Virus record (IMG/VR): IMGVR_UViG_3300027911_000070 | Location: 1-22,357 of that record | Reading direction: 5' to 3' (one strand) | DNA from: a virus | DNA: 22,357 bases | Notes under the pieces: model-generated | Told to the model about the DNA's origin: nothing | Databases searched by the model: none | The model's input: only the letters and a program-made list of their open reading frames with translations | Translations under genes and position numbers: made by a program | Part shown: piece after piece, positions 537 through 22,046 of the stretch | How the letters are laid out: each line of letters starts with the position of its first letter | How positions within the stretch are numbered: position 1 is the first letter of the stretch

Positions 537-1820
537 TTAGTAGCTGATGCCGAATAGAACTCCGCAATACGAAGGACGCTTAACTACAAGCTCTCCGAAT
601 AGGCAGATATCTACGATATATTGGAAGCCAGTTGTGTTTCTGACTTCAAAGTATTCGATTCCATCAGGAGACTTACGTTTTCTGAAGAAACCGTTCGAAT
701 AGAAGGTCAATGCTCTCCAGTCAATGAAGTAAATGACATCATCATCTGCTTCTTGAACTCCGACGAGCTTAACCGATCCCTTGGTTACAGATCCAATTTG
801 AACTTCCATCCAGCCGTACTGAGAAGCCTTCTGTGAGTTTGGAACCACATTGAAAGCACCTTTAGATGCTTCAATTACCTTCATGCAAGAACCAATGTTC
901 TTGTAGCTCATGACGACATCGGTTGGAGCGCCTTTACCAAACTGACGAATTGTGGTTAGGGCATCAAAGATTTTTTCCATGATGTTAACCGCAGTGATAG
1001 TTGTACCACTTACGTTGATCGCCTGGAGGTAAGGATATAGAGTTTTTGTTACCCCATATAGCTGAGCATCTCCGCCGTTTGCAGCAGAGAGGAAAGCTCC
1101 ACGGATAGAACTGAATGCATTACCAGAGGTAGGATCAGCGCCATCATTGTAGAACTTAGCATTGTTAGCAGTCGTGTAAGCAGAAAGATTGAGTGGAGTA
1201 CCACCAGCGCGGGTAGTAGCTACAGTAACAACCTGGGTATTCATATCGATGTTCTGAATGTAACCAGCAGCAGAGGTTGCAGTTACATCGTCTTTTACGA
1301 ATACTTTTTGCTTAACTACAAATCGGTCAGGACGATCCACAGTTGCAAGACCCGATGCAAGTGAAGCGTTGTCTGAAGCGAATTTAGCAAAGTGAGCGCC
1401 ATTCATTAAGTTCACGGACAATACGTTTTTCAAGTAGTCCATGAAATCGCTGATGGTGTCAGGAAGCAATTTCAAGAAGTTCTTTTCAGAAATCTTGTCA
1501 TGCTCCATGATATCGCGATGATTAAAGATCATCGATCCCCAAATTTCTTTGGCGGTCGTCACACGGCCTCTAACGTAGGTGTCTTCAGCTACGTCGGTAG
1601 ATCCAGTGAGTGATCCGAAAGCTACAGAGCTTGCGCCTGCGGCTTTAAAAGGGACGATCAAAGCAGCTTCACCAGTAGTAGAGCTACCAGTTAGCCAGCC
1701 GTCATCACGTTCGATATTAGAAATGATATAATCCCGCTTGATCAGCTCTTCTTTGAGCAAGTCATTTGGGAGATAGTCATTTAGCATTTGGCTAAATGAC
1801 CGAGTCGTCGAAGTTCCCAT
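537..1820 (-). CDS. Major capsid protein, P22/HK97-fold type
   Basis: This 427-residue protein is called as the major capsid protein from its size, its composition and its place directly after the scaffold gene. The start ATG at 1818-1820 has a clear AGGAG five to six bases upstream. The N-terminal part contains a helical stretch (about residues 8-35), then a beta-rich middle with an exposed Gly/Ser/Thr-rich loop. The C-terminal third ends with a beta-strand and hydrophobic segment, including a run of aromatic residues around YSNGFFRKRKSPDGIEYFEV, typical of coat proteins in P22-like podoviruses. It should assemble on the portal with the scaffold product. A perfect 10-bp inverted repeat lies just inside its start (see 1776-1800). 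The exact subfamily was not determined. Confidence 0.8.
   Translation of the reverse strand: MGTSTTRSFSQMLNDYLPNDLLKEELIKRDYIISNIERDDGWLTGSSTTGEAALIVPFKAAGASSVAFGSLTGSTDVAEDTYVRGRVTTAKEIWGSMIFNHRDIMEHDKISEKNFLKLLPDTISDFMDYLKNVLSVNLMNGAHFAKFASDNASLASGLATVDRPDRFVVKQKVFVKDDVTATSAAGYIQNIDMNTQVVTVATTRAGGTPLNLSAYTTANNAKFYNDGADPTSGNAFSSIRGAFLSAANGGDAQLYGVTKTLYPYLQAINVSGTTITAVNIMEKIFDALTTIRQFGKGAPTDVVMSYKNIGSCMKVIEASKGAFNVVPNSQKASQYGWMEVQIGSVTKGSVKLVGVQEADDDVIYFIDWRALTFYSNGFFRKRKSPDGIEYFEVRNTTGFQYIVDICLFGELVVKRPSYCGVLFGISY
1776..1800. repeat. Perfect 10-bp inverted repeat at the start of the capsid gene
   Basis: GTCATTTAGC at 1776-1785 is followed by ATTTG and then by its exact reverse complement GCTAAATGAC at 1791-1800. 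In the mRNA this makes a 10-bp hairpin about 20 bases downstream of the capsid start codon. It could tune translation or serve as an operator. The half-site GTCATTTAG also occurs in the non-coding control region at 8233-8241. Confidence 0.7.
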
Positions 1821-1843
1821 TTATTCTCCTAAGTTTTGCTTAC

Positions 1844-2818
1844 TCAATTCATTTGAGCAGCTAGTTTTTTTAAATCGTCGATTGATCTTGGTCCTTTTGA
1901 TTTTACCGGAGTGCTGGACTGGCCACCGATATTTGGAATCGTTTTAGGAGCAGGTTTTACAGGGATTTGTCCAGCGGAAGCTCCAGCATTTTGCGGTGCG
2001 GGTGCTTTAGCTTGACCAAGTCCATAAATCTGCATCACTTCCTTCACGGCTTGGGCGACCGGAAGATCCACTTTTCCACCTGATCTATGCCATGTAAGCT
2101 CGCCATGATTAATGACAGCTTCCAAGAATGCCCCAGGTTTTCCTACCTGAGCATCAAATTGACTGATTACCGGGGCTAGATCAGGTCTACCCGCGGTATA
2201 TTCTAACTCCAGGCGCTTGGTCTGTGCGGCCTGTGTCTGATACTGCTCGGCTAAAGCCTGGTTTTGCCTCTCCAGGTTATATGCTTGGCGCTCGGCTTGC
2301 GTTCGAGCATCCAAAGCTGCTTTTTGATCCGGCGGTAATTCATTATATTGTAGAGTCTTTAAAGCATATTGCAAGATTTGTTGTTTGGGGATCGCTAATT
2401 TGTCAAAAAAGGCATCTAAATCACCTCTTTTGTAATCTGATCTTGCCGCTTCAATTTGGCTGTTTAATGAGGTAAAATTGGAGTTTACTGACTCAAAATT
2501 CTTCTTTAATTCCTGATGACGGGTCTTAATCGTATCAACACCATAAGCCCGAGTGAAAATATCCCTTACTTCCTTCTCAGATTCAGCATCTTTGATAAGA
2601 GATCGAAACTTTTCGGGGATTTCTCCTTCATAATCGAAGGATTTGAACTTGTAATTAGGTGCATATGCTGGGGCCTGAGACTCTCCGGTGGGTTGAGCCT
2701 GATCTCCCACCGCTTCTGGGGCTGTTTGAGGTGTATCTGGAGTTTGCGCCGCACCTTCTGATGCTCCATTTCCTATTTCTGTACCAACTGATGTCCCTGA
2801 TTCAATTTCATCTACCAT
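1844..2818 (-). CDS. Capsid scaffolding protein
   Basis: The protein has 324 residues, with an acidic, low-complexity Gly/Ala/Pro/Gln-rich N-terminus (1-55). A long charged helical and probable coiled-coil middle (about 60-215) includes a Gln-rich segment. The tail is Pro/Ala/Gly-rich and ends in a basic-amphipathic helix (GPRSIDDLKKLAAQMN). This layout, and its position between portal and capsid genes, fits a phage scaffold whose C-terminal helix contacts the coat protein, as in P22. The gene overlaps the portal gene's end by 11 bases, so translation is probably coupled. A small hairpin CTCAA-ATGAA-TTGAG spans its stop codon, upstream of the capsid ribosome-binding site. I see no protease motif. 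Confidence 0.75.
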   Translation of the reverse strand: MVDEIESGTSVGTEIGNGASEGAAQTPDTPQTAPEAVGDQAQPTGESQAPAYAPNYKFKSFDYEGEIPEKFRSLIKDAESEKEVRDIFTRAYGVDTIKTRHQELKKNFESVNSNFTSLNSQIEAARSDYKRGDLDAFFDKLAIPKQQILQYALKTLQYNELPPDQKAALDARTQAERQAYNLERQNQALAEQYQTQAAQTKRLELEYTAGRPDLAPVISQFDAQVGKPGAFLEAVINHGELTWHRSGGKVDLPVAQAVKEVMQIYGLGQAKAPAPQNAGASAGQIPVKPAPKTIPNIGGQSSTPVKSKGPRSIDDLKKLAAQMN

Positions 2819-5003
2819 ACGTCAATCCATTCCCTGCTTGAGGTATTTGCCACGGTGACATCCCTGGTCCTTGGGGTGCCATATGGCCTTGGTTCGGTGG
2901 GTTGGCCTGCCCGCCGGGTTGTGTAGGTGACATTTTGTTCGCTATCTGAGCCTGCGCTCCTTGATTCATGTCCTCTAACTGCTGAAGGTCCTGTCCTTGG
3001 GCCTCCAGTTGTTGTACTAGCCATTGCAAAGACGAGTAAGGAATTCTTGCACGCTTAGAAGTTGTGGGATCTTTAGGATCTGGTACATAGAGATCGCACA
3101 CAGCCATATAACCATCCGTTGGGATATACCCAGACTTAGCTCTTTGAACTGCTAGTTGGTTCTGAGCCTCAATCTGCTGGTGCTGATCAATTATTTGTGC
3201 ATAAAGTTGTTGCACTTGAGGTGGAAGAAATGGAAAATCGGCCTTCCTCATCCGTGAAGAAAGCCGTTTGATGAGATAGACGTGATTGTCATATTGATTC
3301 ACTTGTGGCATCTGGCCCCGATCAAGCGCCAAGATGTCATTGACTGCGGAATCATAGTCAATTGTCAGGTCATCAAAGCTTTCGTCAAAGTTTGCGTAAG
3401 GCATTTGACGTAAAATTTTGCCCATATCCTCGGGCTTAAGCTGAGCGCCCGCATACTGGAGCGCGTGGTTTAGAACCATCTGCTTACCGAGCTTTGTCTC
3501 TATGTCATCGCTCTGAGGTTCTACTTTAATCTGATAGCAAATATCTTTTGCGTTTTTAAACTCAGGGATATTGATCTGCTCATTCCTACCAACTGCATAG
3601 ATTGTTTGATCATCGGGGAGATGGACTTTGGCCAGCTTCAAATAAGTTTTACATACGTTTACAAGAAAAGACTCAAAACGCCTTACATTTCTTTGGAAAT
3701 ATCTTTTCTTTGAAGCAGCTTGGAAAAGAAGGGTATAAGGTTCTTGGCCGCTTTGATCTTTGAGAGTGTCTTCTTCAACTCCCATGACCTGATATAGCTC
3801 TTGTATTTGAGAGAGCATATATTGGGTGTATTGGGAGCCGTCTCGTCCTGGAAGAACTCCGGGTTCTTGTCCGGTGTAATTAATCGATCTAACACCGGGT
3901 AATTCCATTCCAGGGGATACTTTAGTTCCATTTTGTATGAGTAGCTTATCGTCGCCGAGAGTAATTTGATGTTCGGCAATCTTTGAGGCGGATCGATTAA
4001 TCTCCACCTGATAGGGTCGCATTTGCTTGATTGGGGAGCGCCCACGAGGAGTTGTGGGAATAGTCTCGTACGCTTTGTAGACAATAGGAAATATTGATCC
4101 GGGCAAGACCCCTTGAGCAAGTATACCCTCTTTGGTTGTAATGAAAAAGTACCCCTCTGGATACCTGGCGCTTTGCCTGAAATAGTATTCTCTAACGGCT
4201 GCATGGTTCTTTACTCTTTGATACCCGCCGCGAGCATTGTCAAATACAATGAATGTTTCATCCTGAGATTCTTTTATGAACTTCTGAACCTCCGGATCAC
4301 CTTCAAACATTTTCTTAAGCTTCTCAAGAGGAACCATTTTTTGGATCTCAAGATAGCTTGATTCATCCATCGTTTTGCACGACGGGTCGCGTCTTAGGTT
4401 AAAGCCATATATGTCCTCAAAAACAAAAGCCCCAGCAAACACGGGCTTTGTCTTATCTGGCATTGGCTGGCCCATCTGATCAAACATTGGCTGACCAGAA
4501 GCTTCATCCACCAATTGCTCAAAGTGAGTGACTGGACCACCTTGAGGATCATAGAATATCTTCGTGGCCACTTCCCCTATATTTACAAAACAATCAGCCC
4601 ACTCATCAATTCTGTCTGTCTCAATCGAATACTTCTCGCAAGCATCCTGCCAAACTGACTCATGAAGCTCCGCTGCTTTTTGGTCCGATAGCTCTGAGGA
4701 ATTTTTTGGTTCAAACCCAACCCCCGGAGCAAGGGCTATAATGTTATTGGAGTAGATTTTGCAGATTTTTTGAACGTGATTTTTGGTGAGGCGGATCTTT
4801 TGCTCTGAATTAAGCTCTTTAGTTTCCCTGAGCCGTCTAAAAAAATTCGAGTATTTGCGGTTGTAGTGCTCGCCCGAAACCAATAAAAGGTTTGAGCGCA
4901 TTTCTGAGAAAATCTCAACGTCGCAGGTTTCACCTTCTAGGTGCAAGGCATTTAAAGCCTCAATGTCATGAACCTGCGTCAGATTGTCCGGCTTCATCTC
5001 CAT
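2808..5003 (-). CDS. Portal protein, P22-like
   Basis: This roughly 731-residue protein matches the size and character of P22-type portal proteins. The N-terminus is helical with many charged residues (EMRSNLLLVSGEHYNRKYS), followed by a wing/stem region containing the tryptophan-rich segment VWQDACEKYSIETDRIDEWAD. The C-terminus has long Gln-rich helices (from about residue 600) ending in a Pro/Gly/Gln tail, like the barrel region of long portals. It forms the dodecameric ring at the packaging vertex and would contact the terminase encoded just upstream. The frame opens with TTG at 5006, but ATG at 5001-5003 is preferred; another in-frame ATG lies at 4997. The start overlaps the preceding small gene by about 38 bases, consistent with translational coupling. 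Confidence 0.85.
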   Translation of the reverse strand: MEMKPDNLTQVHDIEALNALHLEGETCDVEIFSEMRSNLLLVSGEHYNRKYSNFFRRLRETKELNSEQKIRLTKNHVQKICKIYSNNIIALAPGVGFEPKNSSELSDQKAAELHESVWQDACEKYSIETDRIDEWADCFVNIGEVATKIFYDPQGGPVTHFEQLVDEASGQPMFDQMGQPMPDKTKPVFAGAFVFEDIYGFNLRRDPSCKTMDESSYLEIQKMVPLEKLKKMFEGDPEVQKFIKESQDETFIVFDNARGGYQRVKNHAAVREYYFRQSARYPEGYFFITTKEGILAQGVLPGSIFPIVYKAYETIPTTPRGRSPIKQMRPYQVEINRSASKIAEHQITLGDDKLLIQNGTKVSPGMELPGVRSINYTGQEPGVLPGRDGSQYTQYMLSQIQELYQVMGVEEDTLKDQSGQEPYTLLFQAASKKRYFQRNVRRFESFLVNVCKTYLKLAKVHLPDDQTIYAVGRNEQINIPEFKNAKDICYQIKVEPQSDDIETKLGKQMVLNHALQYAGAQLKPEDMGKILRQMPYANFDESFDDLTIDYDSAVNDILALDRGQMPQVNQYDNHVYLIKRLSSRMRKADFPFLPPQVQQLYAQIIDQHQQIEAQNQLAVQRAKSGYIPTDGYMAVCDLYVPDPKDPTTSKRARIPYSSLQWLVQQLEAQGQDLQQLEDMNQGAQAQIANKMSPTQPGGQANPPNQGHMAPQGPGMSPWQIPQAGNGLTYGR

Positions 5004-5286
5004 CAACCAGTTCCCCGTTTAGAATCAATTCTTCATATTTTAAGGGATCTGTTAAGAGCAGCTCTTCGAGCTGATTTTCCCTCAAACGAAGTTCTCTTAG
5101 TTCCAGTGATTCCTTGGTTTGTCTCAAATGGACTTCGTCTGAGAGGGCCTGCTCAGATGCAGCGGTGGCACTTAGCTCGGATTTGGTTGGCCTGCCAAAT
5201 TCTAAGCAGAGATCTCCCAAACTAAACTTGGATACTCCGGCTCGCTTGCATAGGTCTATTATGTCTGAAATTTCTTTTAGGTCCAT
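4966..5286 (-). CDS. Small acidic helical protein between terminase and portal genes
   Basis: From ATG at 5284-5286 this gives 106 residues. The first 35 residues (MDLKEISDIIDLCKRAGVSK...) form an amphipathic helix and a possible helix-turn-helix-like fold. Residues 40-85 are a charged Glu/Leu/Arg-rich helix, probably coiled coil, and the tail is strongly acidic (DGDEAGQSDAGS). An in-frame ATG at 5308-5310 would add eight residues but sits inside the terminase end. The gene starts eight bases after the large terminase stop, and its 3' end overlaps the portal start. Position suggests a packaging or head-assembly accessory. I do not recognise the family. Confidence 0.6.
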   Translation of the reverse strand: MDLKEISDIIDLCKRAGVSKFSLGDLCLEFGRPTKSELSATAASEQALSDEVHLRQTKESLELRELRLRENQLEELLLTDPLKYEELILNGELVDGDEAGQSDAGS

Positions 5287-5293
5287 ATAATTT

Positions 5294-7117
5294 TTAATTC
5301 CCGTATAGTTCATTGAATTCTTCAAACTCTGACGTGATCCTGCGCTCTTCCTCTTTATGCTCAAAAGCCTTACGCCTATCGCGGATCTCTAGCTGGGCTG
5401 GGCTTAAATATTCCTCTAACTGTTCAGTTCTTTTTGCCCGGTCCCTATCCCCTTTGATCGAAGCCCAATCCCATGGTATTTTTGAAACCGCATAGCGTAA
5501 CGCATCGCACAGGTCATCTTTTGCTTTGTTCTTTGGGGTAGCTCTTTGAAGTGAGGAGATTTCACCGGCTAGTTTGTAATTGTCCCCCTCGCCATCGTAG
5601 ATTAGGAGCATGTCGTTCTTAAAAAGAGTATTTAGAACCTGCTCTCCTTTATCATGGGATTTTTCAGCCGGCTGAAACGGATCACCCATCCTAGCTGCAA
5701 TTTCAAAAAAATCTCTCGACGCCCAATCGTAGAATTGGGCCGTGGGCTTATACTTCCGCTCTTTTTTAATCTCTAAGTTTTTCTCAACAATATCAGAAGC
5801 CGTTGTTGCGATATTATCCCCGCGCCAAGAAAATATCACCCTTCCCTGCTGAAAGTCAGGACGAACTGCCACGTAGCATAGGGCTGCTGGGTGGTTGTCT
5901 TTCCCCCCTGAGCCTGGATCTGCTCCCACATATATGTGCCACCCACTTGGCACCGGGTGCCCGGGCTTTAGGTGCCTTGCCATATCAAACGACTCATATT
6001 TCTTATCTGAGTCAACTATGAACCTGCCATATACCCGCTTTTGGATCTCAGCATTTGTGGAGCACCGATTTTTCACCTGAAGAATTTTCTCCTCAGACCA
6101 GTGCGATGGCGTTCCATCCTCATAGTAAAGGCAATCGTACATGCTTACCATCTGCTTAAAAGCATTAGGTAGACGCTCTTGCTCCTTGCCGTTTGGCTCT
6201 AAACAAGCCCTCCAAAACTCCTGACCTAAAGTCGCAGTAAATACCATGGAAAAATAACCATCTGAGGATGAGATACGAAACATCAACTCCTCATAAAGCT
6301 CTACTGGGATTTCTTCATCTAGCGCTATGTAATCAACCGTACCTGTTTGAAGGGAAGATGCATCTTGTCCATAGGTTTTGAAATAAATTGTAACGCCCGA
6401 GTTGAAGTAGATTGAGAATATCTCCTTGTTCTTATACTGAGCCTTCCACCCATACCTAGGATCTTCCTTATACTTTCCCTGCGGCAAAAATTGCTGCCAC
6501 TTAGTCTCGTACTCAATTGTAGCTTGGTTTGAGGTAGGGTATAGGTACCAAAACTGCTTAGGTTTATGTCTCCACAAATGCGGCCATAGATCTACATTCG
6601 TCGCCCACTCAATGCATTTTCTAATCTGAGTCGAGCTTTTTGAGATCTGATTGGCAGCACACAGAAGAACAATCTTCTCCCTGCTCTCAAAAAAATCCCT
6701 GGCCCAGGTGTACCACTTAAACCCATAGAGGTGAGGCAAGCCCTCTTTAAGTTCAAGCTCCCTCTCTTTGATCTGGATATACTCAATAACCGTTTGCTTA
6801 TCTTCAAGGGCTATTGGTAGGGGAACATCATCCTCGCCACAAACCACCGGCTCAATGGGCTTTAGTGGTTCTTTATGCAGCAAATCGCTCACCTGAAGCG
6901 GGGGCTCCCCAGGTTTTCTAGCCCTAAATCTAATCTGCTCTCGCTGCTTTCTCTCCAGATCATACAGGTACTGCTGCTCTTTGGTGCGGGCCGATGTTGC
7001 CCTAATCTCATCCTTCGTCTTACCCTTGGTCCAAAGAATACCCCCGCTCCTCGTGGGTTTATTCTTCAATCCCTTTGGCCTACCGGGCTTTCTTTTTGGT
7101 GGGGGAGAGTCCGTCAA
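5294..7117 (-). CDS. Terminase large subunit (ATPase-nuclease packaging motor)
   Basis: The 607-residue protein has both TerL domains. The N-terminus is basic with an AT-hook-like KRKPGRPKG at residues 8-16. The ATPase domain has a deviant Walker A, CAANQISKSS, at 153-162, and Walker B VDYIALDEE at 261-269. The RNaseH-like nuclease domain shows VGADPGSGG with an acidic residue at 400, YDWASRD near 463-469, and KDDLCDALRYA at 533-543. It cuts concatemeric DNA and drives it through the portal. The Walker A has serine where glycine normally precedes the lysine (NQISKS rather than NQIGKS); all other catalytic positions look intact. Its ATG overlaps the stop of the upstream gene by four bases, and the portal gene follows after one small gene. 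Confidence 0.9.
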   Translation of the reverse strand: MTDSPPPKRKPGRPKGLKNKPTRSGGILWTKGKTKDEIRATSARTKEQQYLYDLERKQREQIRFRARKPGEPPLQVSDLLHKEPLKPIEPVVCGEDDVPLPIALEDKQTVIEYIQIKERELELKEGLPHLYGFKWYTWARDFFESREKIVLLCAANQISKSSTQIRKCIEWATNVDLWPHLWRHKPKQFWYLYPTSNQATIEYETKWQQFLPQGKYKEDPRYGWKAQYKNKEIFSIYFNSGVTIYFKTYGQDASSLQTGTVDYIALDEEIPVELYEELMFRISSSDGYFSMVFTATLGQEFWRACLEPNGKEQERLPNAFKQMVSMYDCLYYEDGTPSHWSEEKILQVKNRCSTNAEIQKRVYGRFIVDSDKKYESFDMARHLKPGHPVPSGWHIYVGADPGSGGKDNHPAALCYVAVRPDFQQGRVIFSWRGDNIATTASDIVEKNLEIKKERKYKPTAQFYDWASRDFFEIAARMGDPFQPAEKSHDKGEQVLNTLFKNDMLLIYDGEGDNYKLAGEISSLQRATPKNKAKDDLCDALRYAVSKIPWDWASIKGDRDRAKRTEQLEEYLSPAQLEIRDRRKAFEHKEEERRITSEFEEFNELYGN

Positions 7118-7887
7118 AACTTCTCCGCACCTTGCCCTGAATTCGCAAATCTAACCGCAAGCTGCGTTGGCTTAGATTTCTCCTCAATGGCTTTAAGCCT
7201 AGCCTTAAGCTCATCCATCGATAGGTTCTGTAAGGTTTTCTTTACTTGACGCTCATCCGAATTTACATGCACCGATAGCGTCTTTTGCTCAATTTTTTGG
7301 GTTATAGCCCCATTCACACGCACATCAAGCATCGCAATAATCTTCGTCTTTAACTCCAAGAGTTTGACATTAGGCCTACCTTTGGCATCAGTGTCATCCA
7401 TCTCTAATATATCCCTAAGCTTATCCATCCCAAAATGCAGAGCTTCGGTGGCAACCGCGCTATACGATGCGGGCATGCAAAGTATCCAAGACGCCTTCTC
7501 AGGCTTTGACATATACGAGGACATAAAATGCTCATATGTCATAATCCCCGCAATTATGCGATTCACGCTCATCTTGCGCATATCAAACTGCGCTTCGTCG
7601 TACTCCAGCCAAAATTTTAGGCGTGTCCGGTTGTCGTGGGGAGTTGGGGTACGCCCTTCAGTCTTAAGTGTTTTGTAAACTTCCCTGTCATTTAACCCAT
7701 GCAAATCGGGTCTAAGCAAATACCCATCCTGTAGCTTTTTAGCCACTGAAGGCGGTAGCAGATTACCAATGGAGCGGGGGTTGGACATGTCCCAGAGAGT
7801 GATTCCTTGGGCCTCTTCTGTCGTTGCCAGAGGCGTTTCTAGGCTTATCTCTCTAGTGTGTACGAGATTGTTGGGGCGGCTTGTCAC
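7114..7887 (-). CDS. Candidate terminase small subunit
   Basis: This 257-residue protein is the first gene of the leftward late operon, and its stop overlaps the large terminase start by four bases, the usual place for a small terminase. It is mostly helical. Residues 50-110 (PPSVAKKLQDGYLL...RLKFWLEYDEAQ) could hold a DNA-binding helix bundle, and the C-terminal third is charged helix (ERQVKKTLQNLSMDELKARLKAIEEKSKP), suitable for oligomerisation. The start is GTG at 7885-7887, with no Shine-Dalgarno and a promoter-like pair just upstream, so it may be translated from a nearly leaderless mRNA. An alternative ATG lies at 7786-7788. I did not recognise a terS motif; function is inferred from position only. 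Confidence 0.55.
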   Translation of the reverse strand: MTSRPNNLVHTREISLETPLATTEEAQGITLWDMSNPRSIGNLLPPSVAKKLQDGYLLRPDLHGLNDREVYKTLKTEGRTPTPHDNRTRLKFWLEYDEAQFDMRKMSVNRIIAGIMTYEHFMSSYMSKPEKASWILCMPASYSAVATEALHFGMDKLRDILEMDDTDAKGRPNVKLLELKTKIIAMLDVRVNGAITQKIEQKTLSVHVNSDERQVKKTLQNLSMDELKARLKAIEEKSKPTQLAVRFANSGQGAEKF

Positions 7888-14400: not shown

Positions 14401-14730
14401 ATGAAAAAATTTGAAAGGTTTCCAGAAGGCTGTAAAGTTGTGGCTTCGATTTATGCTCCTGATAATAAGTTTGTCAGACGTACATGGAAGGAGCGGTTAT
14501 TTACTCGGCCTTGGAAGCCTTTTACCCGCACTAAGTCAGTTGAAGCAAACTGGGCATATTATTTAAAAGACTTAAATACAGCGATTGTAACTTTTAGGAC
14601 TGCAGCTCTTTTAGAGAAAGAAGGTTTTCCTGTAGCCTACGGGGAAGTCCCCGCATCGGTGGTGGAAACTACTCGTATGACTAGTAACAACTCCATGGTG
14701 CGGGGGAATAATGGGGTCTCGGTAACTTAA
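14401..14730 (+). CDS. Hypothetical phage protein overlapping a tRNA-like element
   Basis: The 109-residue protein starts at ATG 14401, four bases after a GAAAGGGC box, at the head of the long rightward operon. It is basic and mixed alpha/beta: VVASIYAPDNKFVRRTWKER, then TKSVEANWAYYLKDLNTAIV and a helix TFRTAALLEKEG. The aromatic- and Arg-rich middle could bind nucleic acid. I do not recognise the family. The last residues (NNGVSVT) are encoded by the first 16 bases of a tRNA-like sequence, so the C-terminus may have been fixed by that element. It has one cysteine and no membrane segment. Confidence 0.7.
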   Translation: MKKFERFPEGCKVVASIYAPDNKFVRRTWKERLFTRPWKPFTRTKSVEANWAYYLKDLNTAIVTFRTAALLEKEGFPVAYGEVPASVVETTRMTSNNSMVRGNNGVSVT

Positions 14731-14783
14731 CTGGTAAAGTCCTGGACGCAGGAGATTGTGGGTTCAACTCCCATCCGAGACCG
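14715..14783 (+). tRNA. tRNA-like element with a shortened anticodon arm
   Basis: GGTCTCGG (14715-14722) pairs perfectly with CCGAGACC (14775-14782) as an acceptor-like stem. A normal D arm follows: TA, then ACTT-AACTGGTA-AAGT with the usual GG in the loop. The T arm is standard, GTGGG-TTCAACT-CCCAT (14758-14774), with a TTCRANY-type loop. Between the D and T arms only about 17 bases remain, five or six fewer than any standard tRNA needs. They fold as TCCTG-GACG-CAGGA, with no seven-base loop and no credible anticodon. It may be a decayed tRNA or a tRNA mimic. A T run follows at 14785. Confidence 0.6.
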
Positions 14784-16827: not shown

Positions 16828-17850
16828 ATGCGCAGATTCTATCCATATGCTCTAGTCCTTGGTGTCTTTTTTGCCACCCGAATCTTTGATACCCCGCCCG
16901 AATACGAGAAGGGTTGGCTAGCCCTAGCAATAGGCCTGGGTTTAGTGGGCTTACTAAGTAAGCCTTTGATTGATAAAAACCCCCGCGTCTTGTCGTTCTT
17001 CTACGCTGCTGGAGCTGCGGCAGCCTTTGGGATGTTTCCAAAAGTCCTGAAGTCTCCGGTATCAACGCTTGGGCTACAGTGGTCGGCAGGACTAGCTCTA
17101 GTGCTTTTCATCCTATTTTTTAGGATACCAGCCCCAATTTTAGCTAGAATTAGGCGAATTTACATTCAGCTTGCACCATTGTTCATTTTGGATATTTTAA
17201 TCCAAGCAGTAAGACGGGTAGCAGATGATCACACTCTGCTCCTTGGAAATCCCTCCCTTCAAGGATGCTTAATTGCAGCACTGCTACCCTTTATTGAAGC
17301 TTGGTATATTTTCTGGCCTGGAGTTTTAGCGGTAGCCCTAACCCTTGCTTCAATGCCTTTAGCAGCCCTTGTCCCTGTGATCTGGTTTAGATTTCCTAAG
17401 ATTAAAGCCCGCTACAAACTAGGCACACTACTCGCTGGGTTTGTAACTTGCGCCTATATCTACCCCGAGTATCTAACCCCACGAGGACGGTTTAACGTCT
17501 GGAGAGAGGCCTATGGTTGGTGGGTCTCCGAACCATCGAGGCTACTTTATGGGGCAGGCTTAGGCACTTCTCAGATACTTGTGCCTTACATCCAAGCCTC
17601 AAATGGGATGCCTTTAACTCAACGGACTTTCTTTTTTAGCTTTCACAATGACTACGCTCAGACTGTATTTGAGTGGGGTGTGCCTTTAGCCATATGCGCG
17701 GGACTTCTACTTCTTCACCGGGTTAGAGTAACCACCGGAGCAAGGCGTGTAGCGTGCTATTCGTTTATGATCTCAATGTTCGGGAACTACATGCTTCATC
17801 ACCCCTTCACGCTGATATTTGGGTTTGCCCTTCTCTGGAGTAGCCTATGA
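16828..17850 (+). CDS. Wzy/WaaL-like polytopic membrane protein (O-antigen polymerase/ligase type)
   Basis: The 340-residue protein has roughly nine or ten membrane segments (about 5-20, 29-48, 54-73, 85-100, 112-127, 145-186 as a pair, 195-212, 283-297, 308-340). The long loop between the last segments carries the Wzy_C/O-antigen ligase signature: RGRFNVWREAYGWW (219-232), LLYGAGLGTSQ (239-249) and SFHNDYAQTVFEWGVP (271-286), with Arg221, Trp225, His273, Asn274 and Glu282 in the expected order. Such enzymes polymerise or transfer undecaprenyl-linked glycans on the periplasmic side. In a phage this could change the host surface and block superinfection. It is the last of four adjacent membrane-protein genes. 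Host wzy and waaL proteins are usually longer (about 400). Confidence 0.7.
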   Translation: MRRFYPYALVLGVFFATRIFDTPPEYEKGWLALAIGLGLVGLLSKPLIDKNPRVLSFFYAAGAAAAFGMFPKVLKSPVSTLGLQWSAGLALVLFILFFRIPAPILARIRRIYIQLAPLFILDILIQAVRRVADDHTLLLGNPSLQGCLIAALLPFIEAWYIFWPGVLAVALTLASMPLAALVPVIWFRFPKIKARYKLGTLLAGFVTCAYIYPEYLTPRGRFNVWREAYGWWVSEPSRLLYGAGLGTSQILVPYIQASNGMPLTQRTFFFSFHNDYAQTVFEWGVPLAICAGLLLLHRVRVTTGARRVACYSFMISMFGNYMLHHPFTLIFGFALLWSSL

Positions 17851-18080
17851 AGTACACGAGAGAAAAGATCTCAAGCCTAATGGGGCATACTGAAGTGATC
17901 TATAAGGTTGAACAATCAAACTTTGAGCTTATAGCCAGCCCTATGGGAATACACTTTAGAGGGACTTCCCCAATAGTCGATGACGCAAAGGGCTTAGGGG
18001 ATTTTGCAGAGCTTGTCTCTAGGGTTTGGGTAGATCATCAAAAGCTTATGCCAAAGATCCTAAAGCCGGGGGAGCATTGA
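17847..18080 (+). CDS. Hypothetical small protein upstream of the SNF2 helicase
   Basis: The 77-residue protein starts at ATG 17847, overlapping the membrane gene's stop. It has an N-terminal basic helix (MKYTREKISSLMGH), a strand-rich centre (IYKVEQSNFELIASPMGIHF) and a helix near the end (LGDFAELVSRVWVDHQKLM). I do not recognise it. Its stop overlaps the likely TTG start of the SNF2-type helicase, so it may be a partner of that enzyme or a coupling gene. No cysteines, membrane segment or metal site. Confidence 0.65.
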   Translation: MKYTREKISSLMGHTEVIYKVEQSNFELIASPMGIHFRGTSPIVDDAKGLGDFAELVSRVWVDHQKLMPKILKPGEH

Positions 18081-19513
18081 ACTATAAGATCAAGCCTTGG
18101 GCGCATCAGCTAACAGCGATTGAAAGGGCAAAAGACTTAAGAGACTTCGCCTTCTTTTGTGAACCCGGCACTGGGAAAAGTTGCATGCTGATCAACACTC
18201 TTAGGCATAAGTTCAACGTGGAGAAGATGATCCTAAAGACCTTGATTCTCTGCCCACCCGTAGTGATCTCAAACTGGGCTAATGAGTGGAAGATGCACTC
18301 AAGCCTAGATTCTAAGCTCATTGTGCAGCTTACAGGCTCTCAGGTGCAAAGACTTAAGACGTTTCAAAGCTCAAACCCAAGATCAGTATTTATCTCAAAC
18401 TATGAGATCACCACAATGCAGGATTTATTTGAGGAGATCAAAGACTGGGGGCCTGAAGTAATTGTAGCAGATGAAAGTCATCGAATTAAGAACTACGCTT
18501 CTCAGCGGGCTAAGCGGTGTATTGAACTAGCCAAGGATGCAAGGCATAGATATATCCTAACGGGCAGCCCCATACTCAATTCCCCATCTGATATTTTTTC
18601 ACAGTTTAAATTTTTAGATGGCGGGGCGACACTTGGCTCTAACTTCTTTGCTTTTCGGGCCAGATACTTTAGAGACGAAAATTGTGGGATGCCAAGGCAC
18701 AAATACTTCCCAAAGTGGGTACCCATGGATGATACCCCAGCTCAGATCAACTATCTAATTGAGCCCCTGTGCGCTAAGGCTAAAAAGTCAGAATGCTTGG
18801 ATTTACCGCCTTTGGTTAAGACGACGATCAAAGTACCGCTTGGACCTGGCCAAAAAGAGGCCTACGAATCAATGAAGAAAGAGTTCATTGCGTTTGTAAA
18901 CGGGAACGCCTGTACGGCAATGCTTGCCATTGTCAAGGCGCTTCGCTTGCAGCAGATAGCATCGGGGTATATGCCTACGGTTGATCAGACTGGAGAGAGC
19001 TTTACAGCCCGCTTTAAGGGAAACCCCCGCATCATGGCGCTAAGGGAGCTTTTAGAGGAGCATACTCCGCACTCAAAAGTGATAGTTTGGGCCTCGTGGG
19101 CTGAGAATTATAAGGACATACGGGCAGTTTTTGAGGATATGGACTTACCCTATGTCGAGCTAACAGGTGAAACCCCCGCATCAAAGCGCACAGCAAACGT
19201 GGATGCTTTTAACAATGACCCATCCATTAGATGCCTGCTTGGGCATCCTGGGAGCGGTGGGATCGGCGTGAACTTGATTTCAAGCAACGTAGCCATATAC
19301 TACTCAAGAACATTTTCTTTGGAGCATGCCATCCAATCTGAGGCAAGAAACTTTCGAGGCGGCTCTGAGATTCATGAGAGTATTCAGCATATAGATTTAG
19401 TAGCTGAGGGGACTATAGATGAGTTTATCCAAACAAAGCTTGCAGAAAAGGTTGAGATAGGGGAGAAGATTTTAGGAAATCTAACTCAAGAACTAATGAA
19501 AGGGCAGATATGA
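18077..19513 (+). CDS. SNF2-type DEAD/DESH-box helicase
   Basis: The frame opens at TTG 18026, but the best start is TTG 18077, overlapping the previous stop (TTGA) just after a GGGGGAG tract; no ATG precedes the ATPase core. From there it has 478 residues. Motifs in order are EPGTGKS (29-35), LILCPPVVISNWANEW (56-71), VADESHRIKN (130-139, a DESH box), YILTGSPILN (159-168), and in the second RecA-like lobe KVIVWASWAENY, GSGGIGVNLI and QSEARNFRGGS. It should move on or remodel DNA during phage replication or recombination; phages often carry one with an exonuclease. Two copies of the 14-base repeat lie inside, in different reading frames. Its stop overlaps the next ATG. Confidence 0.88.
   Translation: MNYKIKPWAHQLTAIERAKDLRDFAFFCEPGTGKSCMLINTLRHKFNVEKMILKTLILCPPVVISNWANEWKMHSSLDSKLIVQLTGSQVQRLKTFQSSNPRSVFISNYEITTMQDLFEEIKDWGPEVIVADESHRIKNYASQRAKRCIELAKDARHRYILTGSPILNSPSDIFSQFKFLDGGATLGSNFFAFRARYFRDENCGMPRHKYFPKWVPMDDTPAQINYLIEPLCAKAKKSECLDLPPLVKTTIKVPLGPGQKEAYESMKKEFIAFVNGNACTAMLAIVKALRLQQIASGYMPTVDQTGESFTARFKGNPRIMALRELLEEHTPHSKVIVWASWAENYKDIRAVFEDMDLPYVELTGETPASKRTANVDAFNNDPSIRCLLGHPGSGGIGVNLISSNVAIYYSRTFSLEHAIQSEARNFRGGSEIHESIQHIDLVAEGTIDEFIQTKLAEKVEIGEKILGNLTQELMKGQI
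19021..19034 (+). repeat. AAACCCCCGCATCA repeat, first copy in SNF2 gene
   Basis: Identical to the copies at 14331 and 19170. Here it is read as the codons AAC CCC CGC ATC A (Asn-Pro-Arg-Ile). Confidence 0.7.
19170..19183 (+). repeat. AAACCCCCGCATCA repeat, second copy in SNF2 gene
   Basis: Same 14 bases, 149 bases after the copy at 19021, but in another reading frame: GAA ACC CCC GCA TCA (Glu-Thr-Pro-Ala-Ser). Protein-level conservation therefore cannot explain the match. Confidence 0.7.
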
Positions 19514-19941
19514 TGGAAATTACAGTAGCAGAGATGGACGCATTGATTCAGAAGATGGTTCAAAAGCGGGAGGAGATAAGGCTTCATAAAGAGATTGGCT
19601 CAAAGCTCAATGCAGAGCTTGAGGCTATGGAGTATCAGGCAGCACTCTTTCTAAAAGAGTCAGAGCGGGAGAGCTATAGAAGTCCGTTTGGGACGGTATA
19701 TACCATCAACAGATGGTCTGTTCAGACACCAAAATCTGACGAGGATAAGATTGCATTCTTTAATTATTTGAAGGAGCGGGGCTTGGATTTGAAGTACATG
19801 TCAGTCAATTCCAACGCGCTTAATTCTTTCTACAACGCAGAGATGGAAGCAGCCAAAGAACAGGGCACCATAATGGACTTTAGGATCCCCGGTATCTCAG
19901 AGCCCACTCTCACAATATCGACCGGACTAAGAAAGGGCTAA
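19510..19941 (+). CDS. Conserved phage protein, SNF2 helicase partner candidate
   Basis: The 143-residue protein starts at ATG 19510 (or 19513), four or seven bases after GAAAGGGC, and overlaps the helicase stop. An N-terminal coiled coil (about residues 5-55, QKMVQKREEIRLHKEIGSKL...) is followed by a beta part (SPFGTVYTINRWSVQTP) and a C-terminal part with DEDKIAFFNYLKERGLD, then VNSNALNSFYNAEMEAAKEQG and DFRIPGISEPTLTIS. I recall similar unannotated proteins beside phage helicase and recombination genes. The coiled-coil start is a little like Gp157 proteins, but the match is weak. Function unknown; a replication or recombination role is inferred from position. Confidence 0.7.
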   Translation: MMEITVAEMDALIQKMVQKREEIRLHKEIGSKLNAELEAMEYQAALFLKESERESYRSPFGTVYTINRWSVQTPKSDEDKIAFFNYLKERGLDLKYMSVNSNALNSFYNAEMEAAKEQGTIMDFRIPGISEPTLTISTGLRKG

Positions 19942-19943
19942 CT

Positions 19944-20756
19944 ATGAACGAGATTATTGATTCAAGCGGAAGAGAATTGGTTAAGAGCCAGACTCAGCAA
20001 AACGAGCAGATTCTAAAGAGCGATATTCAGCTCCCCTGGGTACTCCTCCAACAAGGGCTTTCGGACTTTGTCAGTGAAGGTAAGGCTCAGATGGGGGATA
20101 TGGTTAACTCCATGACGGGTGAGAAGCTTGGGGATAAGAGCAAACCCATTGAGTTTATCCCACTCACAATGAAGAACTCTTGGGTGCTATCTGAGAAGAT
20201 TGGAAATAAGTACGAATACCGTAAGACCTTGCCAAGGGATTCGGGGCTAAGGGATGGTAAAGATCCTTTGGAGATGACGGGAGAGAGCTTGCCTTGGGAT
20301 TTTGTTCATAACGGACTTCCTTGGAAGCGAACAAAAGTTATCACCGTTTACGCGGTTTTGGTAAAAGACATTGTGGGCTTTTTAGAAGAAGTAAAGAAAG
20401 CTCAAGAGACCGGGGATTTTGATCTGGATAAGGCTCTAATGCCCTATGCAATTGGGTTTAGATCAACCTCCTACAATGCGGGTAAGAAAGTAAGCACTCA
20501 GTTTGCCAAAGCTCAAGCGATGGCAGCTTACGGGGCAAAGCCTTATACCAACACAATGATGCTCGGATGCCATATGCAGAAGAACGATCAGGGCACGTTT
20601 TATGTATATGATGTAACTCCGGGTAGAAAATGCACGAAGGATGAGATTGAGCAGGCAGCAAGTCTCTATAAAGTAGTTACTTCAGGCAATGTAAAGACTC
20701 ACGATATTGATACAGGTGCACCGGAAGAATCAGCAAGTTTAAGCGATGAGTATTGA
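19944..20756 (+). CDS. Conserved phage protein of unknown function, possible DNA-binding partner
   Basis: The 270-residue protein starts at ATG 19944, five bases after GAAAGGGC and two after the previous stop. It has LPWVLLQQGLSDFVSEGKAQ and MGDMVNSMTGEKLG near residues 30-65, KPIEFIPLTMKNSWVLSE after that, then TKVITVYAVLVKDIVGFLEE and a beta-rich part near MPYAIGFRSTSYNAGKKVST. The C-terminus is acidic (TGAPEESASLSDEY), as in many single-stranded DNA-binding proteins. Beta-rich core, acidic tail and helicase/exonuclease neighbours make an SSB-like role possible, but I see no OB-fold signature. Treat this as an unassigned conserved phage gene. Confidence 0.75.
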   Translation: MNEIIDSSGRELVKSQTQQNEQILKSDIQLPWVLLQQGLSDFVSEGKAQMGDMVNSMTGEKLGDKSKPIEFIPLTMKNSWVLSEKIGNKYEYRKTLPRDSGLRDGKDPLEMTGESLPWDFVHNGLPWKRTKVITVYAVLVKDIVGFLEEVKKAQETGDFDLDKALMPYAIGFRSTSYNAGKKVSTQFAKAQAMAAYGAKPYTNTMMLGCHMQKNDQGTFYVYDVTPGRKCTKDEIEQAASLYKVVTSGNVKTHDIDTGAPEESASLSDEY

Positions 20757-20788
20757 TTTCCCAATTCCTAACTCATTGTTTAGATACT

Positions 20789-20870
20789 CCCTACGAGTTA
20801 ATGCCCTTTTCGCGTAGGGGTGGTGTAGCTGGGAGCGCCAAAGAGAAGCCTTGAGCAGCTTCATTCCAGC
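20789..20870 (+). ncRNA. Structured untranslated RNA upstream of the Acb2/Tad1-like gene
   Basis: In the 136-base gap, CCCTACG (20789-20795) pairs with CGTAGGG (20813-20819). GCTGG (20828-20832) pairs with CCAGC (20866-20870) and encloses GAAGC (20845-20849) paired with GCTTC (20858-20862). Three nested or adjacent helices suggest a folded leader or small RNA; the first stem lacks a T run, so it is not a plain terminator. The next ribosome-binding site (AGGAGA) lies just after it. No matching riboswitch class was recognised. Confidence 0.4.
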
Positions 20871-20892
20871 ATAAAATAAAAGGAGAAATGAA

Positions 20893-21300
20893 ATGGCATT
20901 AGAGACCTTAAGAGGAATTAAGAAGTTAGGTGATTTTGAGGTTATTGTGATGGATGAGCTTAGAAAAAGATATCCAGAGCGTTTTACAGAGACCGGAGCA
21001 ATGGACCATACGTGGTTTGAGGAGACAGTTCGACCACATAATTTTATCTATGTAAGACACGATAAAAACTCTATATCTTTTACCCTTCAAAATGGACCCG
21101 TGAAAGCTTGGGGAGTTAATGGGTGTCAGGTAGATGCCTTGATTGAAGCGGCTAAAGCTATTTTAGATGGCTTAAATAAACATTTTCCTTGTAGAGAGAA
21201 TGCTTGCGCTATTACCAAGTTAGATGAGGCACTTCATTGGCTTGAGCATCGAACTAAAGACAGGGTTAAAAGACAAGTTGAAGGGACAAATCAAGCCTAA
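20893..21300 (+). CDS. Acb2/Tad1-like helical-hairpin protein, candidate anti-CBASS/anti-Thoeris
   Basis: The 135-residue protein starts at ATG 20893 after AGGAG. The C-terminal half is the notable part: GVNGCQVDALIEAAKAILDG (74-93), then FPCRENACAITKLDEALHWL (98-117) and RTKDRVKRQVEGTN (120-133). Two long helices with a REN..AITKL-EA..WL second helix match my memory of phage proteins carrying the Acb2/Tad1 hairpin domain, which bind cyclic nucleotide or gcADPR signals and so block CBASS or Thoeris. The N-terminal 70 residues are an extra alpha/beta part of unknown role. Many proteins with this hairpin are untested, so inhibitor activity is inference. It follows a structured leader and overlaps the exonuclease gene by one base. 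Confidence 0.7.
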   Translation: MALETLRGIKKLGDFEVIVMDELRKRYPERFTETGAMDHTWFEETVRPHNFIYVRHDKNSISFTLQNGPVKAWGVNGCQVDALIEAAKAILDGLNKHFPCRENACAITKLDEALHWLEHRTKDRVKRQVEGTNQA

Positions 21301-22046
21301 TGAATATACTGCTACTTGATTTTGAATCCACTGGAATTGACCCTAAAACTGCCCGCCCCACTGAGTTTGGGTGGGTATTGGTTGAAACCAATGGGTGGAA
21401 GCCTCTGGTGATGGAGCAGCAGTATTTGCATGAAGATGGGTACCCTGAGATCACTAAGGAGAATTTTGCAGTTACGGGAATATCTCTAAAGGACATTGTT
21501 AGCTTTGGTATGGGCCCAAGAACATACCTCTCAATGGTTCAGCAGTTTTGCTTACTCCATTCAGTTCAATACTTGGTAGCCCACAATGCCTATGGCTATG
21601 ATGAGCCTCTTATGCGAGCGGAAGCTAACCGAGTACCTATTGGGCATTTAGATGCACTCCTTGGGCTACCGTGGATAGATACAAGGGTAGATTTGCCCCA
21701 CAAGTTTGAGCCTGAAAGCCATAAGCTTAAGCACCTAGCCACTGACTATGGCTTTATAAATCCTTTTCCGCATAGAGCCCTAACTGACTGCCTTACTATG
21801 CTTAAGATATGCTCAAACTTTACCTTTGAGGAAATACTTGAGTATAGGTCTATACCTTGGGTTGTAATTAGGGCAGACGTAAGCTACAATGACCGGCAAC
21901 TCGCCAAGGATGCCCGCTTTAGTTGGGAAAAATTGGGTGAGAAGAACTACCCAAAATGTTGGGTTAAAAAGATCAAGATTAATAAGCTTGAGGAACTAAG
22001 GAAGGCATATACCTTCCCAATTGTTGAAATAAAGGAGTCCGTATGA
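21300..22046 (+). CDS. DnaQ-like DEDDh 3'-5' exonuclease
   Basis: The 248-residue protein starts at ATG 21300, sharing one base with the previous TAA. The DEDDh residues are all visible: LLLDFESTG gives Asp7 and Glu9, VAHNAYGYDEPLM gives the ExoII motif with Asp101, and PHRALTDCLTM gives His158 and Asp163. It should degrade single strands from the 3' end, for proofreading or recombination, with the SNF2-type helicase upstream. The last 60 residues (VSYNDRQLAKDARFSWEK...KCWVKKIK) form a separate small domain often attached to phage DnaQ-like exonucleases. The catalytic core is complete. The next gene overlaps its stop by four bases. Confidence 0.88.
   Translation: MNILLLDFESTGIDPKTARPTEFGWVLVETNGWKPLVMEQQYLHEDGYPEITKENFAVTGISLKDIVSFGMGPRTYLSMVQQFCLLHSVQYLVAHNAYGYDEPLMRAEANRVPIGHLDALLGLPWIDTRVDLPHKFEPESHKLKHLATDYGFINPFPHRALTDCLTMLKICSNFTFEEILEYRSIPWVVIRADVSYNDRQLAKDARFSWEKLGEKNYPKCWVKKIKINKLEELRKAYTFPIVEIKESV

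Follow-up and report, generated by a model that had tools for sequence, protein, structure and literature searches.

A Tad1-Family Protein with a Lineage-Specific N-Terminal Segment Encoded by an Uncultured Phage

The tad1 Locus and Its Neighbourhood

The stretch of viral DNA analysed here (the window, 22,357 nucleotides) encodes a 135-residue protein of the Tad1 family. The features of the locus are collected in Table 1. The open reading frame is preceded by a ribosome-binding site, AAGGAG at 20880-20885, rated as good, and its stop codon overlaps the start of the exonuclease gene in the sequence TAATG (21298-21302). Many uncultured virus contigs carry relatives whose length equals that of the window protein or comes close to it, and those of equal length share 54-73% identity with it. 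When tad1 is compared with its closest relatives, pN is 0.18-0.24 while pS is 0.78-0.96, the synonymous sites being saturated, which identifies the product as a selected protein. The gene is thus real and under purifying selection. That the window carries a decayed, non-functional remnant of Tad1 is scarcely credible: clear degeneration is seen in some relatives (both the motif and the tail are missing from L027 and L028, and L036 is shortened), but in the window gene pN lies far below pS and the motifs are intact.

Table 1. Features of the tad1 locus in the window (positions are those of the window; residues are those of the tad1 product).
Feature	Coordinates	Strand	Remarks and evidence
SNF2-type helicase	18026-19513	+	upstream, replication-type
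143-aa protein	19510-19941	+	upstream, replication-type
Pam3 gp34-like protein	19944-20756	+	upstream, replication-type
Untranslated gap before tad1, 136 nt	20757-20892	+	one 7-bp inverted repeat, 20789-20795/20813-20819
Tad1-family protein gene	20893-21300	+	135 aa (coordinates with stop); PDB phmmer, A1 profile, PHROG 2428, hhalign
Residues 1-47, segment specific to the lineage, predicted as strand-helix-helix, replacing the canonical Tad1 N-terminus	20893-21033	+	AlphaFold2 pLDDT 78-92 by block
Residues 48-79, two strands (the first PHNF) and the QNGPVKAWGVNGCQ loop; homologue of the ligand-pocket loop region in Tad1	21034-21129	+	hhalign E 4.9e-9 over 48-78
Residues 80-126, Acb2/Tad1 helical hairpin, motif C-R-E-N...I-T-K-L-D-E-A..W (R101, N103, T108, K109, W116, R120, R124)	21130-21270	+	PF24729 E 8e-6, VIA-align
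Residues 127-135, C-terminal tail R-Q-V-E-G-T-N	21271-21297	+	R127, E130 and G131 identical in 50/50 subfamily proteins
DnaQ-like 3'-5' exonuclease gene	21300-22046	+	PF00929 E 5.6e-9; PHROG 192 E 1.3e-25

The gap in front of tad1 had been taken for a structured RNA leader, and this view finds no support. Shuffling shows nothing unusual in its folding energy (z -0.75, with 47 of 200 shuffles as good), searches of the 136 nt revealed neither an Rfam match nor a promoter- or terminator-like site, and a gap of this kind is absent before tad1 in the relatives L001 and L003. The position of tad1 directly before a DnaQ-like exonuclease holds true in the window itself. As a recurring neighbour the exonuclease drops out, since it was not found near tad1 in any of the other relative loci fetched. 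Among these the neighbourhood of tad1 varies. The order helicase, 143-aa gene, tad1, gp34-like gene is seen in L073, so that a place among replication-type genes recurs once.

These data bear on the idea that the hairpin was co-opted for replication, or for work together with the adjacent exonuclease, rather than for anti-defence. The overlapping start codon of the exonuclease and the similar replication-type surroundings in L073 speak in its favour. The variable neighbourhood, the absence of DnaQ near tad1 in the other fetched relatives, and the retention of the known motifs make it very improbable.

The phage lineage of the window lies far from cultured phages. No match was obtained when the window was compared as DNA with phage records, and its terminase is 23% identical to that of a Microbacterium phage; among the loci compared, L050 has the nearest terminase (50%) and portal (41%). 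The head and packaging proteins (540-7887) are nearly devoid of family matches, Pfam giving none for any of them. A tRNA match of 42.3 bits (gathering threshold 29) was found by Rfam at 14716-14782 and is absent from the ARAGORN report. A 340-residue hydrophobic protein is encoded at 16828-17850; it matches Wzy_C (O-antigen ligase/polymerase) below the threshold (E 0.003) and is an unusual product for a phage early gene. In one relative, three consecutive pentapeptide-repeat proteins of the ADLSNANL type are encoded shortly upstream of tad1 (L005:2664-4588).

Assignment to the Tad1 Family

The closest known proteins are Tad1 proteins of the CmTad1/CbTad1/SBSphiJ7 type (PDB 8kbb, 7uav-7uaw, 8smd, and 8kbe-8kbf; UPI13470.1 from Bacillus phage SBSphiJ7). 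A sequence search of the PDB with phmmer gave CmTad1 (8kbb) as the best match of the window protein, with E 5.6e-13 over residues 30-134, followed by CbTad1 with E 5e-8; no unrelated chain stands near these two among the top matches. With the A1 profile, built from seven sequences including SBSphiJ7 Tad1, the E-values were 3.4e-31 and 2.8e-12, respectively. A profile-profile alignment (hhalign) placed residues 48-135 on canonical Tad1, represented by about 25 proteins including the founder SBSphiJ7 Tad1, with a probability of 99.9 and E 2.1e-33. The window protein also matches PHROG 2428 (E 2.6e-23). In cultured phages 102 records match, the founder among them, and scans seeded either with SBSphiJ7 Tad1 or with the window subfamily converge on some contigs, e.g., IMGVR_UViG_3300035698_006161 and 3300017963_000062.

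The window protein carries the Acb2/Tad1 hairpin domain: its sole Pfam match is PF24729 (Acb2_Tad1_hairpin, E 8e-6), with 26.4 bits just below the cut-off of 27. The sibling L003 exceeds this cut-off with 28.2 bits. Searches with the window protein gave no match in the PADLOC library, no meaningful match in NCBIfam, and no match to the crAss001_48 family PF21825, for which the control was likewise silent. The sequence-only reading had called the protein an Acb2/Tad1 sponge. This call is supported and narrows to Tad1, because the match spans the whole C-terminal two thirds of the protein, including the loop and the tail that only Tad1 possesses. The Tad1 family is already known, and the window gene represents an uncultured branch of it with an altered front end, no new type of system.

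With CmTad1, CbTad1, and SBSphiJ7 Tad1 the window protein shares the strand and FQxGP...NG loop, the hairpin RENxxxITKLxEAxxW, the R-rich second helix, and the VEGT tail. It differs from them in residues 1-47, a different segment that is about 20 residues longer and contains two predicted helices, in a hairpin turn shorter by one residue, and in Leu94 replacing Phe. Acb2 (T4 Vs.4 and homologues in Pseudomonas phages; PF24729) shares with the window only the hairpin with its motif T-K-L-x-E-A-x-x-W. It has about 90 residues and lacks the N-terminal sheet, the Tad1 loop, and the VEG tail, whereas the window protein has 135 residues and a strand-containing N-terminus; BLASTP of the latter against T4 Acb2 gave no significant match. 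The sponges Tad2 and Acb4 follow the strategy proposed here for the window protein, the sequestering of nucleotide signals. They are tetramers with structures unrelated to Tad1 (PMC12043709, PMC11722364), and neither matches the window protein.

The N-Terminal Segment

The part in front of the hairpin had been described as a further domain of 70 residues. This turned out to be mostly a misreading: hhalign shows residues 48-79 to be ordinary Tad1 and confines the difference to residues 1-47. In canonical Tad1 an N-terminal sheet precedes the hairpin (PMC12043709), and since a beta domain of similar size is normally present there, the residues before the hairpin do not constitute an extra domain. 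SBSphiJ7 Tad1 itself has 142 residues. Where the window protein has residues 1-47, canonical Tad1 has about 28 residues of unrelated sequence. Residues 48-78 still match canonical Tad1 when the hairpin is left out of the alignment (E 4.9e-9). Residues 1-64 alone yielded no match to the canonical N-terminus (E 0.11). HMMER alignments to CmTad1 start further forward, at residue 30 with the single sequence and at residue 26 with a small profile, so residues 26-47 may be distantly related to canonical Tad1.

The segment of residues 1-47 is common to about 50 distinct proteins of uncultured viruses. It is strongly conserved there: all 50 distinct branch proteins have P28, M37, and F42 in the segment, and all have P48, R55, and D57 after it. 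Neither the 50,697 cultured phages nor the 72,556 plasmids searched gave a match to the N-terminal 64 residues. PHROG 5149 aligned with the N-terminus at E 0.01; it matched none of nine relative contigs, and the control was silent as well. Residues 1-47 most likely cap the N-terminal sheet in a manner specific to this lineage.

Predicted Structure

An AlphaFold2 single-chain model built from 21 aligned sequences reached a pLDDT of 85 and a pTM of 0.75. It shows a strand at 15-19, helices at 20-26 and 39-49, strands at 52-55 and 60-63, and helices at 80-97 and 101-126. The two last helices (pLDDT mostly 87-98) correspond to the C-terminal helical hairpin that had been recognised from the sequence, and the stretch around 64-79, i.e., the loop, is of low confidence in the monomer model. 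Canonical Tad1 has an antiparallel sheet beta1-beta4 in its N-terminal part; the model strands may correspond to it, with the helices at 20-26 and 39-49 lying between them. The N-terminal part alone (residues 1-78, pLDDT 81) had no fold match in the PDB, which is no proof of a new fold.

A Foldseek search of the PDB with the model gave a best E of 0.97, and Tad1 was absent from the list. Realignment of the Foldseek candidates with VIA-align ranked five CbTad1 entries first, with Z of 7.1-8.8 within residues 64-135 of the single chain and 37-39% identity over 50-68 aligned residues. The top match has a Z of 8.8 and an rmsd of 2.0 for 67 residues over 65-135. Helical hairpins easily reach middling Z, and for this reason the match counts only alongside the sequence evidence. 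In BFVD, the model is matched from end to end by a viral protein of 135 residues (TM 0.87, 48% identity); other matching entries carry the name Acb2/Tad1 hairpin protein. The C-terminal two thirds of the window protein are thus predicted to have a fold like that of solved Tad1.

Ligand-Site Residues and Proposed Function

Sponge proteins soak up the small signalling molecules by which bacteria trigger anti-phage defence. The window protein probably works as a sponge of the Tad1 (Thoeris anti-defence 1) family. Most likely it would act as a hexamer that takes up gcADPR, cyclic trinucleotides, or both, with anti-Thoeris/anti-CBASS activity. Tad1 is a hexamer of three dimers, and its ligands have been reviewed (PMC12043709). 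As in solved Tad1, six copies of the window protein would assemble into three dimers. Each pocket would be lined by one subunit's QNGP...NG loop and C-terminal VEG tail and by the hairpin of its partner. The Thoeris signal gcADPR and cyclic dinucleotides would bind in these pockets, and cyclic trinucleotides, the signals of CBASS and of type III CRISPR-NucC, at the two trimer interfaces. The ligand would be bound without cleavage, keeping the effector silent until replication of the phage is complete.

The residues expected at these sites are largely present. Structures reviewed for Tad1 put the conserved loop between sheet and hairpin and the C-terminal tail at the gcADPR pocket. The window loop (QNGPVKAWGVNG) and tail (VEGTN) align with the canonical FQxGPxKExGxNG loop and VEGT tail, and the tail is similar in CmTad1 and SBSphiJ7 Tad1. 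The hairpin and tail set R101, E102, N103, T108, K109, W116, R120, R124, and R127 is kept in the window protein; R101, N103, T108, K109, R120, R124, E130, and G131 are common to it, CmTad1, and SBSphiJ7 Tad1. Position 94 is Leu in the window lineage and Phe in CmTad1, CbTad1, and SBSphiJ7 Tad1. This Phe, F82 of CbTad1, is reported to contact gcADPR, and its replacement by Leu94 might make gcADPR binding weaker or different. T108 of the window aligns with T68 of T4 Acb2, where the motif T-K-L-x-E-A-x-x-W corresponds to T68-W76. A natural T68M change in T4 Acb2 was reported to lower ligand binding (PMC12657230).

Variation within the Branch

The branch was sampled as 50 distinct proteins, the window protein included. 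Almost half of them (24/50) combine a canonical loop with an intact triad R101/T108/K109. The loop is canonical and the triad changed in 14/50, the loop is remodelled to MLTKPASEGGDLNRCQ with the triad intact in 10/50, and both are changed in 2/50. L031 and L057 exemplify a changed motif with an intact loop, L073 and L083 the reverse. The triad is therefore altered in 16 of the 50 proteins, whereas N103, R124, R127, E130, and G131 are invariant in all of them. Among canonical-type proteins, R/T/K are kept in 54/62. On a branch tree computed without the triad columns, in which many inner branches are weak, eight triad changes are needed, at least three of them forced by well-supported branches. 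The proteins with the remodelled loop form one clade with a support of 100/100. It has 12 members (L068, L071-L073, L075-L080, L082, and L083), in which QNGPxKExGxNGCQ has become MLTKPASEGGDLNRCQ and the motif is kept in 10/12. Because the triad is changed in 16/50 and the loop is remodelled in a distinct clade, the data suggest that the two ligand sites evolve separately in the subfamily.

This variation can be read in favour of specialisation in either direction. An anti-CBASS sponge of Tad1 fold that has become specialised for cyclic trinucleotides, with a working trimer-interface motif and an altered gcADPR pocket, would fit the intact R-E-N...T-K motif of the window, its Leu94, the replacement of its N-terminal 47 residues, and the clade of 12 relatives with the remodelled loop. 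The window's own loop and its VEG tail are nevertheless near canonical, and we regard such a specialisation as possible, if unlikely. The opposite case, in which the sponge chiefly takes up gcADPR or some other TIR product and the trinucleotide site is incidental, draws on the invariance of the tail- and pocket-type residues set against the 16 proteins with an altered triad, and on the repeated triad changes on the tree. It too seems rather unlikely for the window protein, given that R101/T108/K109 are intact there and in its nearest relatives. A sponge for gcADPR and/or cyclic trinucleotides remains the preferred reading of the window gene, which is an ordinary branch member with intact motifs.

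We infer that the triad serves trinucleotide binding because it is common to Acb2. For the branch, the simplest reading is then that the trinucleotide-type site has been repeatedly lost and the gcADPR-type site kept, with one clade altering the loop instead. CbTad1 and another Tad1 can trigger the Panoptes defence (PMC12657218). Since some Tad1 proteins do so, one may speculate that shedding one ligand site is favoured. A broader proposal is that the branch, besides exchanging its N-terminal segment, has on separate occasions given up the trinucleotide-type motif or reshaped the gcADPR-type loop. The exchange would retune the pocket for another TIR or CBASS product, and the loss of a site would be an escape from sponge-sensing hosts with Panoptes-type defences; as a whole we consider this improbable.

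A well-studied sponge family gains an uncultured branch of about 50 distinct proteins. Among them are natural variants whose changes affect either of the two presumed ligand sites, the remainder being conserved. If binding confirms the pattern, the two Tad1 sites would be separable and under separate selection, which matters for predicting which defences a phage beats and for understanding Panoptes (PMC12657218).

Some relatives have diverged further. The proteins encoded at L027:5001-5369 and L028:733-1101 are strongly degenerate or repurposed: they consist of the N-terminal segment (51% identity to L003) and a hairpin-like part without the REN..ITK motif and the VEG tail. The contig L016 carries two Tad1-like genes, at 1073-1456 and 5001-5405; one of them is intact, the other divergent, its motif changed to CEQNKKTIACL.
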